Shown one piece after another: positions 42,218 to 48,966 of a DNA stretch of 51,649 bases. The notes below the pieces were generated by a model. That model saw only the letters and a list, made by a program, of their open reading frames with translations. It made no database searches and was not told the DNA's origin. A program made the translations under genes and the position numbers. Numbering within the stretch: position 1 is the stretch's first letter; each line of letters starts with the position of its first letter. Location: contig JACVJD010000005.1 of assembly GCA_015711825.1 (NCBI GenBank), positions 1 to 51,649 of the forward strand. Direction: 5' to 3'. Origin of the DNA: Candidatus Solincola daggyaiensis. Its GTDB lineage: Bacteria > Actinomycetota > Geothermincolia > Geothermincolales > RBG-13-55-18.

Positions 42218-42502
42218 GGAGACGTGGGGAGCCGGCTTCATCCTCTTTTTCCGCGAGCGGGAGCGGTGGACAGGATGAGCGGCGACGCGCATCCCGCAGC
42301 TCACGCCGTTCATGCCCGGCAGGTGCGACTCGAGGCCATACCCCAAATGCCCCATCCCGCCTTGCGGGCAGCCCGCCGCCGCGAAGGGCGTCCGTTTCCG
42401 CCTGGGGTCGCTCACGTGGAATTCAAGCTTGCCCTTACCTTGTCACCGCGGCGCGCCATAATAACACCAGGCGAGCGAGCGAGAGCACGGGGGAAGCGGA
42501 CC

Positions 42503-43810
42503 ATGGACCTTGAGGAGAAGCTGAGGATCCTCGGCGGCGCGGCACGCTACGACGTCTCCTGCTCCTCAAGCGGGGTTCGGAGGGCGGGGCGCCACGGCAA
42601 GCTGGGGGATTGCTCCTCCTTCGGCGTGTGTCACAGTTGGTCGGACGACGGGCGCTGCATATCCCTGCTCAAAGTGCTCTTCTCCAACCGCTGCATCTAC
42701 GACTGCGCCTACTGCGCCAACCGGGCGTCGGCGTCGCGCCCGCGCGCCTCCTTCACCCCGCGGGAGCTGGCCGACCTCACCATGGATTTCTACCGGCGCA
42801 ACTACATCGAGGGCCTCTTTCTGAGCTCCGCGGTGTGGATGAGCCCCGATCACACCATGGAGCGCCTCCTGCTCACGGCACGCCTGCTGCGCGAGGAAAA
42901 GGGCTTCAACGGCTACATCCACCTCAAGGCCATCCCCGGCGCCGGCCCCGAGCTCATCCGGCAGGCCGGCGTGTACGCCGACCGTATGAGCGTTAACATC
43001 GAGCTGCCCAGCGAGAGGAGCCTGCGCCTGCTGGCGCCGGACAAGAGGAAGGAGGACATCCTCGGCCCCATGGGGGACGTGGCGGAGCGCATCTCGGCCA
43101 ACCGGGAGGAGAGGAAGCGATTCCGCAAGGCGCCTGCCTTCGTCCCGGCGGGCCAGAGCACCCAGCTCATCGTGGGAGCCACGCCGGAGAGCGACCTGCG
43201 CATGGTGGAGCTGGCGGAGGGGCTCTACCGCCGTTACGGTCTCAAGCGGGTGTATTATTCCGCCTTCGTGCCGGTCTCAGACGACCCGCGCCTGCCCCGC
43301 CTGGAAAGCCCGCCCCTGCTGCGGGAACACCGCCTCTACCAGGCCGACTGGCTCATCCGCCATTACCATTTCACCTGCCGCGAGATCCTGGACGAAAAAC
43401 ATCCCCACCTCGACGAGGAGCTGGACCCTAAGTCCTCCTGGGCCCTCCGGCACCCCGAGTTCTTTCCGGTGGAGATCAACCGCGCGGATTACGAGACCCT
43501 TTTGCGCGTGCCCGGCCTCGGGGTGCGGTCGGCGCGCCGCATCTTGTCCGCGCGGCGTGTCCATTCCCTGGATTTCGAGGATCTGCGCAGGATGGGAGTG
43601 GTGATGAAAAGGGCGCGCTATTTCATCACCTGCCGGGGAAGATACTACGCTGACTCCCGGGCGAGCGATGAAGAGATAAGAAGAAGGATCTCCACCCGTT
43701 ACCGGGAGGCGGGAGGCATGGGTGGAAAGGGCCAGATGCCCCTTTTCGCGCCGGAGGCTTTCGGCGTGGGCGCCAGCGATGCCCTGACCAGCGCGACCGG
43801 GGAGCTGTGA
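42503..43810 (+). CDS. Putative DNA modification/repair radical SAM protein (TIGR03916 type)
   Basis: A 435-residue radical SAM protein. The N-terminus has YDVSCSSSG and DCSSFGVCHSW. The SAM cluster motif is NRCIYDCAYCANR (C64, C68, C71), which fits the family named putative DNA modification/repair radical SAM protein (distantly related to spore photoproduct lyase). The C-terminal NRADYETLLRVPGLGVRSARRILSARR (about 331-357) is a helix-hairpin-helix DNA-binding motif. The ATG at 42503 is preceded by GGGGGAAGCGG. It pairs with the gene at 44039, the usual TIGR03915 partner. The reaction is unknown; a DNA-directed role is inferred from HhH and family. Confidence 0.88.
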   Translation: MDLEEKLRILGGAARYDVSCSSSGVRRAGRHGKLGDCSSFGVCHSWSDDGRCISLLKVLFSNRCIYDCAYCANRASASRPRASFTPRELADLTMDFYRRNYIEGLFLSSAVWMSPDHTMERLLLTARLLREEKGFNGYIHLKAIPGAGPELIRQAGVYADRMSVNIELPSERSLRLLAPDKRKEDILGPMGDVAERISANREERKRFRKAPAFVPAGQSTQLIVGATPESDLRMVELAEGLYRRYGLKRVYYSAFVPVSDDPRLPRLESPPLLREHRLYQADWLIRHYHFTCREILDEKHPHLDEELDPKSSWALRHPEFFPVEINRADYETLLRVPGLGVRSARRILSARRVHSLDFEDLRRMGVVMKRARYFITCRGRYYADSRASDEEIRRRISTRYREAGGMGGKGQMPLFAPEAFGVGASDALTSATGEL

Positions 43811-44038: not shown

Positions 44039-44803
44039 GTGCTCGTTTACGATGGGGAGTTCGAAGGTCTGTTATGCGCCGTGGCGCACTGCCTCGATGA
44101 GGGTGAGGAACCGGATGATTTCCTGCCGCGGGGCTCCGCGGCGCAGACAAGCCTCTTCGCGGAGGAGGTCACGGTGGAAACGGACCCTGCCCGCGTCGAT
44201 GAGATGTGCGCGCGAATACGCGGTCATATTTCCGCCGGCGCCCTCAGGCGCTGCCTGTATGCCTTCCTTTCGGAGGAAAAGGGCCGCGAGATGCACATCT
44301 TTCGCTACCTGCGCCTCGCCTTTATCCACGGGCGCGAGGTGGATGCGCATCTGCGCCATGCAAGCGTGCGCGCGGTGCGGGATATGGGGCGGCGCACCGC
44401 GCACGAGGCCCACCGCATACGCGGCTTCCTGAGGTTCCGAGGTTTGAGAAACGGGCTTTATTACGCGCCCATGCAGGCGAAATGCGACGTGCTGCGGCTG
44501 GTGGCGCCGTATTTCCAGCGGCGCATGGGCGACCAGGACTGGGTTATCCACGACCTCGCCAGGGAGCGGGCGGCCTTGTGCCGCCGCGGCGAGCTGGCCT
44601 TTTTCGCCGCTCCCGGCTTTGAGCCGGATCTCTCACAAAGCGAGCTCCGGGCGCAAAAGCTCTGGCGCGATTATTTCGAGGTCATCGCGGTGGCGGAAAG
44701 GCTCAATCCCCGGCTGCAGAGGAACCTCATGCCCGAGCGGTACCGGCGCACGCTTATAGAGGAGCCCCGAGGATCAAGGCCGGCCTCCCACCGGGATCGA
44801 TAA
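44039..44803 (+). CDS. TIGR03915-type protein, partner of the radical SAM gene
   Basis: A 254-residue protein of the DUF4130 family (probable DNA-metabolism partner, SAM-associated). LVYDGEFEGLLCAVAHCLD at the start is the family signature, followed by RCLYAFLSEEKGREMHIFRYLRLAF, RFRGLRNGLYYAPMQAKCDVLRLVAPYFQRRMGDQDWVIHDLARERA and KLWRDYFEVIAVAERLNPRLQRNLMPERY. The GTG at 44039 gives the family start, but its ribosome site AAGGAGG (44014-44020) is too far. An in-frame CTG at 44030 lies nine bases from it and could be the true start. The gene is separated from the radical SAM gene by about 230 bases. Confidence 0.85.
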   Translation: MLVYDGEFEGLLCAVAHCLDEGEEPDDFLPRGSAAQTSLFAEEVTVETDPARVDEMCARIRGHISAGALRRCLYAFLSEEKGREMHIFRYLRLAFIHGREVDAHLRHASVRAVRDMGRRTAHEAHRIRGFLRFRGLRNGLYYAPMQAKCDVLRLVAPYFQRRMGDQDWVIHDLARERAALCRRGELAFFAAPGFEPDLSQSELRAQKLWRDYFEVIAVAERLNPRLQRNLMPERYRRTLIEEPRGSRPASHRDR

Positions 44804-44807
44804 GGGC

Positions 44808-46727
44808 TCAATAAGTGTTGGGCACCACCGGCAGGATAAGGCGGGATGCCGCCGCGCGGTTGCGCTGGAGCTGGATGAGGGTGAGGCCGAAATAGGGCCA
44901 GGTCATCAGCAGGTCGGCGGTGGATATCTCCAGCTTGATGCGGCTCCCCTTCGGGAAGCGGTGGTAGCAGGCCTGCATCTCCACCGGACGCTCCGCGGTG
45001 TCGCACATGCTCCAGACCTCGGGGTTGTACCCCTCGTAATAACCCCGGCTCACCAGCGTCTCGGTGCCGTCCGGCGCCACCTCATATATCCACGGGATGA
45101 GCTGCGTGAAGGGCTGAGAGCTCTTGTAATACAGCTCGAGCTGGGGCGCTCCCATGATGGTGAGGTCGCGGGTAAGGGGCTGCGAGAGATAGCAACGCTC
45201 GGTGAGGGGGATGCCCAGCAGCTTTATCCTCGAGGGCACCTGCATGGTCTCTCCGCCCACCATGTTCGGCACGTCCTGGTAATAGGGGAGGGAAAGAGAC
45301 CCCGTGATACCCATGTTCACCAGCAGCTCGAAATCCGCGGCACCGCGAGGTTTGTTCTTTGAGAGCAACAGGTTGCCGCCGGAGGTATTGAGATAATAGG
45401 AAGCCGGCTTGGTGCCGGGCAGGGGATAGCGATCCGCCTGACCGTAGTTCTCGGGGTCCCGGTCACGGTAGAAGACCAGGCGCGGCTCCCTGTCCGCGCC
45501 GTTGTCCACGCCCTTTAAGAAACGGTCGAACCACGCCTTGATCTGCTCGCTTATCCACCGGTATTCGGGGCTTTCGGGGAGGTCGATGAAGAAGTTGCCC
45601 CCCATGCCCCCGATATGGCCGTGGTTGGTGATGATCATGCGCGCGGGGGCGTCCATGGCGGTGGAGAAGATGCGCAGTCCCTCATTGGCGTAGAAGATGT
45701 CGTCGTTCCACCCCGCCAGGATGAGGGTGGGGGCCGTGATGGGGTGCTCGACCACGCCGTCGTATTCCTCGTCGCACCAGTAGCGGGCGGAGCGCTCTCG
45801 GAGGTACCGGCGCCCTTTTTCGACGTCTTCCACCCGCCGCTCCATGGCCGCACCCGTGATCCACACCAGCATGTCGGTGACGTCGTTCACCGGCGGCATG
45901 GCCTTCCAGAAGGCGTCCAGGGCGGCCTGCAGCTTCTGCAAGGGATTGAGATCGCTTTTCTGCGCGATGTCGAGGACGTGCATCATCAGGCCGGAGATGT
46001 TGCCGATGTAGGCTCCGGCGGTCAGGAACACTCCCCACAGCGCCTTGGCGGCCCCGTTGGGCAGGATGGAGAACTCCAGGTCCGCTCCCCCGTGCATGGG
46101 CACCACGGCGCGGATACGCGGGTCGCCGGGATCTCCCGGCCTGGGGTCCTTACGCGGCGCCGCCAGGAAGGAGGTGCATCCCCCCATGGAGTAACCCGTG
46201 ATCCCCACCACCGGCCCCTTGTCGTCCCAGAGCACCGGGAAGCGCTGGTCCTCGGACAACAGGGTGATGATATGGCGCACGTCCCTGATCTCTTTCTCGG
46301 GATCCATGCATCCTATCTGGCCCTCCGCGCCGTACCATCCCCGCATGGTGAAGGTGACGCACACGTAGCCGTCGGCCGCGTATTCCTCAGCCGTCTTCTC
46401 GAAGATGAGCTTGTCGCAGTCCCAGGGGTGCACGAAGATGATGGCTGGGTAGTCCTGGAACGGCGCGCCGCCCCCGTGCTCGCGAACGGGGTAGAACACC
46501 GAGACGGGCAGCCTTACCCCGTCCTCCATGCTCCATTGCTCGTCCACCCTGGCCACCTCGAGGGGGGAGCGGTTTTCGGAGCGGAAAACGGCGGCCCCGC
46601 TCTCGCTCTCCGCCGCGGTGGTCCCGGTGCCCGCGCCCGCCACCGGAGACAGCGACAGGGCCATGAGCAGGGCGGTCATGGCCAGGGCTAGGAGCGTGAT
46701 CACTCGAAAGCGGAAAGATCTCGTCAT
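44808..46727 (-). CDS. Secreted CocE/X-Pro-type serine hydrolase
   Basis: A 639-residue exported protein. A signal peptide (ITLLALAMTALLMALSLSPVAGA, cleaved near 31-33) precedes an alpha/beta hydrolase of the CocE/NonD, X-prolyl dipeptidyl-peptidase class. IIFVHPWDCDK and GWYGAEGQIG are typical, the nucleophile elbow is GITGYSMGG (S180), the acid is in LILAGWNDDIFY, and the His is in IITNHGHIGG. A C-terminal jelly-roll (about 450-639) is the family's beta domain. Substrates of the family include proline peptides, cocaine esters and beta-lactam side chains. The ATG at 46727 has GGGGG six bases upstream. It faces the gene at 44039, with four bases between the ends. Confidence 0.9.
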   Translation of the reverse strand: MTRSFRFRVITLLALAMTALLMALSLSPVAGAGTGTTAAESESGAAVFRSENRSPLEVARVDEQWSMEDGVRLPVSVFYPVREHGGGAPFQDYPAIIFVHPWDCDKLIFEKTAEEYAADGYVCVTFTMRGWYGAEGQIGCMDPEKEIRDVRHIITLLSEDQRFPVLWDDKGPVVGITGYSMGGCTSFLAAPRKDPRPGDPGDPRIRAVVPMHGGADLEFSILPNGAAKALWGVFLTAGAYIGNISGLMMHVLDIAQKSDLNPLQKLQAALDAFWKAMPPVNDVTDMLVWITGAAMERRVEDVEKGRRYLRERSARYWCDEEYDGVVEHPITAPTLILAGWNDDIFYANEGLRIFSTAMDAPARMIITNHGHIGGMGGNFFIDLPESPEYRWISEQIKAWFDRFLKGVDNGADREPRLVFYRDRDPENYGQADRYPLPGTKPASYYLNTSGGNLLLSKNKPRGAADFELLVNMGITGSLSLPYYQDVPNMVGGETMQVPSRIKLLGIPLTERCYLSQPLTRDLTIMGAPQLELYYKSSQPFTQLIPWIYEVAPDGTETLVSRGYYEGYNPEVWSMCDTAERPVEMQACYHRFPKGSRIKLEISTADLLMTWPYFGLTLIQLQRNRAAASRLILPVVPNTY

Positions 46728-47062: not shown

Positions 47063-47092
47063 AAAAAAGAGGGGGGCACACAGGCCCCCCTC
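47063..47092 (-). terminator. Intrinsic terminator of the Cys-peptide gene
   Basis: On the minus strand GAGGGGGGC and GCCCCCCTC form a perfect 9-bp stem around a CTGTGT loop, followed directly by TTTTTT. It lies 15 bases after the peptide stop codon. It is the cleanest rho-independent terminator in the window. Confidence 0.93.
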
Positions 47093-47106
47093 CCGGTTAG
47101 GGCGTG

Positions 47107-47172
47107 CTAACCGCAGCTCTTATTGCACTTGCAAGTGCCGCCCTTCCGTCTGGGGATCTTCGTGATCCTCAT
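47107..47172 (-). CDS. 21-residue Cys-containing peptide, candidate RiPP precursor
   Basis: The gene begins at the ATG at 47172 with a GGGAGG site about nine bases upstream and encodes 21 residues. A basic N-terminal part (residues 1-10) leads into KGGTCKCNKSCG with Cys at 14, 16 and 20. A GG pair before the Cys segment resembles a leader cleavage site. The same frame stays open back to 47580, but a -10 element and the ribosome site inside it favour the short product. It has its own promoter and terminator, and a radical SAM/SPASM maturase lies about 380 bases upstream on the same strand. Precursor status is inference from size, Cys content and neighbourhood. Confidence 0.7.
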   Translation of the reverse strand: MRITKIPRRKGGTCKCNKSCG

Positions 47173-47205
47173 TTCACCACCTCCCTGGTAGTGGATCCTA
47201 AATAG

Positions 47206-47211
47206 ATTATA
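47206..47211 (-). promoter_or_regulatory. -10 element of the Cys-peptide gene
   Basis: A perfect TATAAT preceded by GTG lies 33 bases before the peptide ATG; the -35 is not clear (a TTGACG lies too far upstream). Transcription from here gives a short leader with the GGGAGG site, and a transcript of about 130 nt ending at the terminator. Confidence 0.6.
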
Positions 47212-47396
47212 CACCCGTCCCGCAAACCATAAACCACCACCGTCAACCCGGCGGGGCATGGGTTTTTCGCGCGGTAACCGGACCCGCCGGGCTGATCCAG
47301 GATCGGACTGCCTTGCAAGCCCCGCGCCGTTTTTCTCGTTTCCTGCCCTTGTTTCCAAGCGGGGTTGCGAGTTCCGGGAACGCTTATCTTGTGCGC

Positions 47397-47501
47397 CCTT
47401 AGGTGTGTCCATACGCGGGCGCGGCACGTGGGCGTTCCCTTTATCGTTTCGTCCCGAGGTGATTGCCTTAGGTGTGTCCATACGCGGGCGCGGCACGTGG
47501 G
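47397..47501. repeat. 36-bp direct repeat, two copies
   Basis: The 36-bp segment starting CCTTAGGTGTGTCC and containing GCGGCACGTGGG occurs at 47397-47432 and 47466-47501, exactly 69 bases apart, with no mismatch seen. The 377-base interval between peptide and maturase (47173-47549) holds this repeat and the peptide promoter, and no other gene. Each copy contains a CACGTG palindrome. Confidence 0.88.
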
Positions 47502-47549
47502 GGCGCAAGCTGGATACCCTTGGCGCCAAGGCCTTGACGACCCGGAAGG

Positions 47550-48734
47550 CTACCCGCGGACGCGCCCCATGCGGGCGCACATCAGGAGGTCAGGGCCGTC
47601 GATGCCCCCCACGGACTCGGCGCGGAAGCGGCAGCCTCCCCCGCATTCCGCCAGCAGCTCGCAGGCGGCGCATTCTCCCTCCAGCCTCATCTTGGGCAGG
47701 TCGCGCCATGCCTGACGCAAGCCCTTCTCCAGATGACCGCCGCTTATCTCCCGGTAATAACCGCATTTTACCAGGCGCCCACCCGGTTCCACGGCGGCCA
47801 GGTGCGCCCCGCATGCGTACCCGGGCGCGCCCTCGTGCGCCCCCCAGCCCCACTCCAGCTCGAAATAAGGGGCGGCCTCCTCGGGTGCCGGCAAGAGTCC
47901 GGGGTTATCCTCCATGCGCCCCGTGAGCACCGGGTATTCCAGGTTCCATGCCGACACCCCCATCTCCGAGAGCAGGATGCCGAGCTCCTCCAGCTCGCGC
48001 AGGTTGTGCGCGTGGATCACCGTGGCCACCGAGACGTCGATGCCGCTTTCCAGCGCCGCCCGCAGCGCTTCCATGACCCTGGAGAAGGAGCCCGCGCCGC
48101 GAAGACGGTCGTGCCCTTTCTCCAGACCGTCCACCGAGAACTGGATCTCCATGAAGTTCAGGCCGGGAATGTCCTCCCCGCGCAACAGGGTGCCGTTGGT
48201 GATGAGGACGGGGCGGAAGGTCCGGCCCGCCAGGGACTGGTTGAGGGAGACGAACCCCGGGTAGAGCAGGGGCTCTCCGCCCGTGATCATCAACCTCAGG
48301 CCCCCCATGTCCTCGAAGCCGTCCAGCGCCGCCGCTAGGATGCCTGGATCGAGGTCGGCGGATCCCGCGTCCCCGAGGTAGCAATGGCGGCAGCGCAGGT
48401 TGCAGCGATCGGTGATCTCCACCATCAGGTAACGCAGGGAGGGCACCTCGTTCACCCCCACGGGCATCTCTCTGGGGCGGGGCTCGGGCCAGGTCTCCAG
48501 CAACCCCTCCCGGAGGCAGTAGGAGAGGAAGTCCTCCTGGGGGCGGAGCTCCGCCACCGTACGGGTGCCGTCGCACAGGGCCAGGAAATCCATGGCCTCC
48601 TCGGAGAGCTCGTACAGCTCGTCCCGCAGGGTGTCGTACACGCAAGGTTCCTCCAGGCGCTTGAGGAAGCACCCGTCCGCCAACCTCAGGTAACCCTTCT
48701 CCGCCACAGCGCCCTCCCCGAGGGGCTTATTCAT
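47550..48734 (-). CDS. Radical SAM/SPASM peptide maturase with PqqD-like domain
   Basis: A 394-residue protein. Residues about 13-82 (LRDELYELSEEAMDFLALCDGTRTVAEL) look like a PqqD/RRE leader-binding domain. The radical SAM cluster is DRCNLRCRHC (C111, C115, C118), with MITGGEPLLYPG for SAM binding. The C-terminal SPASM domain has Cys at about 308, 324, 355, 358, 364, 368 and 386, enough for two auxiliary iron-sulfur clusters. Such enzymes install thioether or C-C crosslinks in ribosomal peptides. The ATG at 48734 overlaps the upstream gene by eight bases; a GTG at 48707 after GGGGAGG is an alternative. The Cys peptide downstream is the candidate substrate. Confidence 0.88.
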   Translation of the reverse strand: MNKPLGEGAVAEKGYLRLADGCFLKRLEEPCVYDTLRDELYELSEEAMDFLALCDGTRTVAELRPQEDFLSYCLREGLLETWPEPRPREMPVGVNEVPSLRYLMVEITDRCNLRCRHCYLGDAGSADLDPGILAAALDGFEDMGGLRLMITGGEPLLYPGFVSLNQSLAGRTFRPVLITNGTLLRGEDIPGLNFMEIQFSVDGLEKGHDRLRGAGSFSRVMEALRAALESGIDVSVATVIHAHNLRELEELGILLSEMGVSAWNLEYPVLTGRMEDNPGLLPAPEEAAPYFELEWGWGAHEGAPGYACGAHLAAVEPGGRLVKCGYYREISGGHLEKGLRQAWRDLPKMRLEGECAACELLAECGGGCRFRAESVGGIDGPDLLMCARMGRVRG

Positions 48735-48966
48735 AGCGATGTTTCTCCAGCTCCCGCAGGGCCCCTTCGAGGTCGAAGGCGCCTCTCTCCAGCAGGGCCT
48801 TCAGCAGGCGGAAGCTGCCGCATTCCTCGTTCTCCTCCTCCCCGTGGTGGTAGAAGGGGCAGTCGCCGCACAGCAGTTCCCGGTAGTCCTCGATGTCCTC
48901 GAGCCCGGATGCGCCCTCGAGGACCTCTCGCGCTTTTTTCTCGAAGGCCGGAAAACCGTCCGCCAT
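48727..48966 (-). CDS. Small Cys protein preceding the radical SAM maturase
   Basis: A 79-residue protein. The ATG at 48966 has GGGAGG about six bases upstream, which I prefer to the longer frames at 49005, 49011 and 49047. It is helical and acidic, with CGDCPFYHHGEEENEEC (Cys 33, 36, 49 and two His) in the middle, a plausible metal site, and a helical C-terminus. No family is recognised. It overlaps the maturase gene by eight bases, so the two are co-translated. It could be an accessory or carrier of the maturase; it is too acidic and large to look like the precursor itself. Confidence 0.65.
   Translation of the reverse strand: MADGFPAFEKKAREVLEGASGLEDIEDYRELLCGDCPFYHHGEEENEECGSFRLLKALLERGAFDLEGALRELEKHRYE

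Follow-up and report, generated by a model that had tools for sequence, protein, structure and literature searches.

A three-gene unit on the minus strand

The stretch of DNA analysed here (the window, 51,649 nucleotides of Candidatus Solincola daggyaiensis) carries a compact group of three genes on its minus strand, encoding a small cysteine-containing partner protein, a radical SAM/SPASM maturase and a 21-residue peptide (Table 1). All three had been called from the letters alone, and they are real. The partner gene overlaps the start of the maturase gene by 8 nt and the peptide ORF lies 377 nt beyond the maturase gene. The gap between maturase and peptide also holds a 33-bp direct repeat in two identical copies (69 bp apart), which is found nowhere else in the window.

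Table 1. Positions of the genes and sequence elements in the window.
Feature	Position	Strand	Basis
TIGR03916/TIGR03915 pair (putative DNA repair radical SAM protein and partner)	42494-43807 and 44039-44803	plus	well over cut-offs
CocE/NonD-type hydrolase (Xaa-Pro dipeptidyl-peptidase fold)	44808-46727	minus	
Intrinsic terminator of peptide transcript, GC stem and T6	47063-47094	minus	recurs in relatives
Precursor peptide, 21 aa, MRITKIPRRKGGTCKCNKSCG	47107-47172	minus	ORF and conservation in relatives
Hairpin CACTACC-A(A/G)GGA-GGTGGTG enclosing the peptide Shine-Dalgarno	47175-47193	minus	near-invariant in 14 close copies
TATAAT −10 box of peptide transcript	47206-47211	minus	sequence; [TC]ATAAT in 14/14 close copies
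33-bp direct repeat, two copies	47398-47430 and 47467-47499	minus	
Radical SAM/SPASM maturase, 394 aa, N-terminal PqqD-like RRE	47550-48734	minus	ORF, profile comparison, model
Partner protein, 79 aa, CxxC-x(12)-C, mostly helical	48727-48966	minus	ORF, conservation, model

The peptide gene and its expression signals

The peptide is a real gene and not a chance reading frame, because its pN/pS is 0.058 among 14 close copies (91 pairs, which are not independent) and because it co-occurs with the maturase at the genome level (p = 3.5e−29, below). Across the family we collected 55 distinct peptides of 19-22 aa, 47 of them exactly 20 aa. They follow the consensus M[KRT]IxK[VI]x[KR]xxxx[TLI]CKCxx[ST]C, stop at the last Cys or one residue beyond it and have a net charge that is mostly +6 or +7. 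Each contains three Cys, apart from one member with a fourth. Lys stands between the first two Cys in 55/55 peptides, an invariance partly imposed by the DNA search patterns, which demanded CKC; the first, looser protein search made no such demand. The window peptide combines a leader-like M[KR]IxK[VI] with the core CKCxx[ST]C and ends in CKCNKSCG. The peptide hardly varies inside a clade, the same core occurs in bacteria and archaea, and the amino acid sequence is kept across phyla while the underlying DNA is not. A second peptide paralog with the core CKCHSSC occurs distant from the maturase in Nitrospirota (L141, L142, L144), and three Nitrospirota genomes (G079, G080, G085) encode two peptides each, CKCKSSC and CKCHSSC, at separate loci.

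The −10 box, ribosome site and GC-stem/T-run terminator that the sequence-only reading had assigned to the peptide gene itself all recur in close copies. [TC]ATAAT is positioned about 31-33 nt 5′ of the peptide ATG in 14 of 14 close copies, the strong ribosome site recurs in this set (n = 14), and the terminator (folding energy −29.6 kcal/mol, z = −3.9) retains its stem in relatives while its sequence changes. A consensus scanner listed neither the promoter nor the terminator of this gene. The hairpin enclosing the Shine-Dalgarno has a folding energy of −10 kcal/mol in the window's family; three relatives (L048, L049, L065) have a different sequence at this site, with pairing still possible. 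Translation of the precursor may be regulated through this element. Co-regulation of other genes through the hairpin was rejected, since its 19-nt sequence has a single close match per genome, which is the peptide gene itself.

The maturase and the partner protein

Judged from its sequence, the maturase appears to be of the broad RRE-dependent radical SAM/SPASM RiPP kind: the SAM and SPASM Cys set, a PqqD-like RRE and a linked short precursor are all present. The RRE spans about residues 15-85, the CxxxCxxC motif residues 111-118, and the SPASM Cys are at 308, 324, 355, 358, 364, 368 and 386. Both cysteine sets are exactly as first described and invariant in 24 diverse maturase relatives; the SPASM spacing CX2CX5CX3CX17C is an exact canonical match, and Pfam Radical_SAM scores 69.7 bits. 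The PqqD-like leader-binding segment, missed by single-sequence Pfam and PDB sequence searches, was recovered by profile comparison, in which the N-terminal 92 columns match a profile built from PqqD-family proteins of the same phylum (probability 75%, E = 2.5e−5, in register over 67 columns). Forty column shuffles used as a control reach at most 1% probability. The AF2 model (mean pLDDT 91.6) folds this segment as beta strands followed by helices, and its nearest PDB folds are SkfB, SuiB and CteB (5wgg/5why). SkfB is the closest of them and also the nearest PDB sequence match. All three are RRE-bearing peptide maturases that make thioether or C-C bonds.

The partner is helical by structure prediction, with good confidence, and has no match in Pfam, NCBIfam or PDB folds. 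The features originally singled out in it were a CGDC motif and an HH pair; a Cx2-3C-x(9-12)-C segment is the conserved portion of the family, and HH is not conserved outside near relatives. The partner adjoins or is fused to nearly every maturase. Actinomycetota, archaea, Rokubacteria and one Desulfobacterota group encode it next to the maturase. Nitrospirota and other Desulfobacterota carry it as a tandem duplicate, and in several Desulfobacterota (L063, L215, L218, L224, L225) it forms the N-terminal part of a fusion with the maturase. Archaeal loci have the order peptide-partner-maturase. No partner was found near the maturase at L068, L069, L070 and L077.

Distribution and co-occurrence

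We found the system among anaerobes, in Actinomycetota, Desulfobacterota, Nitrospirota, Rokubacteria and Archaea. Full-length maturase relatives with 43-79% identity occur in the window's order, its class and one other family of the phylum. Further ones came to light when 84,980 species were scanned, in Desulfobacterota (Syntrophobacterales), Nitrospirota, Rokubacteria, an Archaeoglobus and another euryarchaeote. Nearly all these relatives have a 19-22 aa peptide nearby. With a loose three-Cys search, CKCxxSC came up next to true maturase relatives and at 0/55 more distant, generic radical SAM loci. The frame is conserved beside homologous maturases: the peptide lies within 1.3 kb of the maturase at 47 of 53 loci, and in most of the remaining cases the genome encodes it at another site.

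The sequence-only reading had proposed co-occurrence of peptide and maturase as a check, and the two proved tightly associated. Among 198 Desulfobacterota genomes the maturase is present in 24, and the peptide occurs in 23 of these 24 and in none of the 174 others (Fisher p = 3.5e−29), as counted with a strict peptide pattern and intact ORFs only; 3/174 maturase-negative genomes give stop-broken frames. In the window's phylum and class, 22 of 23 maturase-positive genomes carry the peptide (unlinked in four), compared with 0/9 maturase-negative relatives of the class. In Halobacteriota the maturase is found in 6/120 genomes, with the peptide next to it in all six. One closed genome (G396) contains maturase, fused partner and cupin, and no peptide was detected in it; the loci of G029 and G081 are on truncated contigs. 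The RiPP reading is supported by this frame conservation and by the RRE, and what was seen at first as a single locus belongs to a cross-domain family.

In a tree of the maturases the phyla fall almost completely apart (6 label changes against a minimum of 5); the archaea form one group, and only G058 is placed with Rokubacteria. The module is therefore either old or was transferred early between phyla.

Neighbouring genes and pathway links

Among 53 neighbourhoods, 13 from Desulfobacterota and one from Nitrospirota have a cupin adjoining the maturase; beyond the trio, no other tight cross-clade neighbour emerged. No recurrent transporter or exporter, protease, immunity gene or receptor was found near these loci. 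The cupin is present in 14/24 maturase-positive genomes and 2/174 others, the latter being weak matches (p = 2e−13, 198 Desulfobacterota genomes). It has a His-rich tail in Desulfobacterota and is sometimes accompanied by a second radical SAM/SPASM protein (L066:9124-10424, L071:8827-10302, L081:936-1307).

We rejected a link to sulfate reduction, as dsrA occurs in 15/24 maturase-positive and 85/174 maturase-negative genomes (p = 0.28); it is also absent from the tested genomes of the window's class and from three of the six archaeal hosts. Linkage to the Wood-Ljungdahl pathway (cdhC, 19/24 and 107/174, p = 0.11) is not significant. Genes for 2-oxoacid:ferredoxin oxidoreductase, located 2-9 kb away in a few loci, were discounted as too common, and dehydratase-like and ABC-ATPase neighbours reflect clade synteny only. 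No client enzyme of the product was found.

Several other genes were noted around the trio. A second system of a PqqD-like protein and a radical SAM enzyme is encoded at G000:C134 (L002, L183) and also at G001:C52, G002:C4, G003:C32 and G007:C4; in four relatives it is about 9-18 kb from the trio. In L145 the TIGR03916/TIGR03915 genes adjoin the unlinked copy of the peptide gene, and L146 has relatives of these genes. The hydrolase gene 3′ of the peptide is kept in only a few close relatives.

Comparison with known RiPP systems

In style the system appears closest to ranthipeptides/SCIFF, mycofactocin and PQQ, and the sequence comparisons place it outside each named family, in agreement with the initial failure to recognise the peptide. 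No NCBIfam model matches the peptide or reaches its curated cut-off on the maturase (best 108/500 bits). The maturase falls into no named family; a prior assignment to some other precursor was an objection that the sequence-only reading had named as possible. The top match of the window maturase is the GeoRSP model TIGR04303 (91.4 bits, cut-off 400), and it spans the SAM core only.

Like the SCIFF/ranthipeptide pairs (CteA-CteB, freyrasin PapA-PapB), the system pairs a short and conserved Cys-containing peptide with an adjacent radical SAM/SPASM enzyme that bears an RRE and resembles CteB in fold, and its clade-wide presence likewise argues against an antibiotic. However, the SCIFF peptides of Clostridia hold six Cys within roughly 45 residues, whereas the present peptide has three Cys in 20 residues, is spread over several phyla as well as archaea and comes with an additional CxxC partner; the PapB model gives 58.8/340 bits. 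Sactipeptide systems (SkfA-SkfB, StsB type) include the nearest solved fold and PDB sequence, but their precursors are far longer and export and immunity genes, absent here, accompany them (StsB model 88.4/625, AlbA 49.6/850 bits). Mycofactocin (MftA-B-C) and PQQ (PqqA-D-E) share a tiny, highly conserved precursor, a PqqD-like domain, a radical SAM/SPASM enzyme and cofactor-like conservation, but differ in that the present core is Cys-based, the RRE is fused and no tailoring genes accompany the trio. The mycofactocin model TIGR03962 gives 68.6/265 bits and the PqqE model TIGR02109 50.7/381 bits, and neither the mycofactocin precursor model nor the PqqA model matches the peptide.

The combination of precursor, maturase and partner is absent from NCBIfam, Pfam and the searched literature, although supplements and closed papers may list it; the main text of Kostenko 2022 (PMC9062424), as distinct from its supplement of 22 pathways, does not describe such a peptide. 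The radical SAM RiPP kind is a known one, and the family looks undescribed, with an earlier listing possible.

Proposed product and alternatives

The reading we favour, and hold to be rather probable, is that an RRE-guided radical SAM/SPASM maturase modifies the CKCxx[ST]C core, likeliest through Cys thioethers, to give a conserved peptide that stays in the cell. The PqqD-like RRE would hold the basic N-terminal half (M[KR]IxK[VI]...) of the 20-residue peptide while the SAM radical and auxiliary Fe-S clusters modify the C-terminal core, as suggested by the architecture and by the precedent of SkfB, CteB and SuiB (PMC8326336). The enzyme would most likely join Cys to a nearby residue through one or two thioether bonds; in SCIFF the link first reported, Cys32-Thr37, spans five residues, which is also the distance here from the first Cys to the conserved Ser/Thr. 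The CxxC...C protein probably assists by binding metal or an Fe-S cluster in partnership with the enzyme or the product. Given the near-constancy of the peptide within each clade and the lack of accompanying genes for export, cleavage or immunity, the product is probably internal, serving as a redox or metal ligand or a peptide cofactor. We infer leader binding, crosslink chemistry, partner role and internal function alike from these comparisons.

The same module could instead perform other radical chemistry, since most ring sizes known so far would not fit into the tight CKC: formation of a C-C bond (with the Lys between the Cys as one candidate site), epimerisation, or Cys oxidation or decarboxylation, with free thiols binding a metal or Fe-S cluster. 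The Lys found in every peptide (in part a product of the search patterns), the presence of the C-C former SuiB among the nearest folds and the suitability of three closely spaced Cys for metal binding make this a possibility, albeit a doubtful one, as RRE- and SPASM-bearing enzymes of the SkfB/CteB type that act on Cys-rich cores are so far thioether systems (PMC8326336).

We consider it improbable that the product is secreted to act as a signal or an antibacterial agent, in the manner of ruminococcin C or, as has been claimed, of SCIFF peptides. Such a role would fit a small, basic product, the regulated expression suggested by the Shine-Dalgarno hairpin and the quorum-sensing function claimed for SCIFF ranthipeptides (Chen 2020, as cited in PMC8326336), but the 53 loci lack a conserved exporter, protease, immunity gene or receptor, and the peptide shows almost no diversification and an identical core in bacteria and archaea. 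It is very unlikely that the peptide stays unmodified and carries metal in the way of a metallothionein while the enzyme acts on another substrate; the three Cys, the small Cys partner and the His-rich tail of the Desulfobacterota cupin suit such a carrier, but the genes for peptide and maturase hardly ever occur one without the other, and the maturase carries a predicted peptide-binding RRE. A chance frame or a small RNA has next to no likelihood, for although the gene's own promoter and terminator give a short transcript and an Rfam search of the locus, with nothing above threshold, gave a best match of 20.6 bits (cut-off 39), the codon-level conservation and the retention of peptide but not DNA across phyla contradict it.

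The recurrent trio looks like a peptide-modification system with a housekeeping function rather than a source of one-off antibiotics. Its precursor is very short, it has a dedicated radical SAM maturase and an orphan partner protein, and its core has scarcely drifted among the several phyla, in two domains, that carry it. PQQ, mycofactocin and SCIFF show such a pattern too, and it points to a conserved role in the cell. We tentatively suggest, as a less than even prospect, that this three-gene module and its 20-residue CKCxxSC precursor produce an ancient, undescribed peptide-derived cofactor or metal/Fe-S ligand of anaerobic bacteria and archaea that serves some client enzyme or pathway. The trio is compact enough to be rebuilt in E. 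coli.
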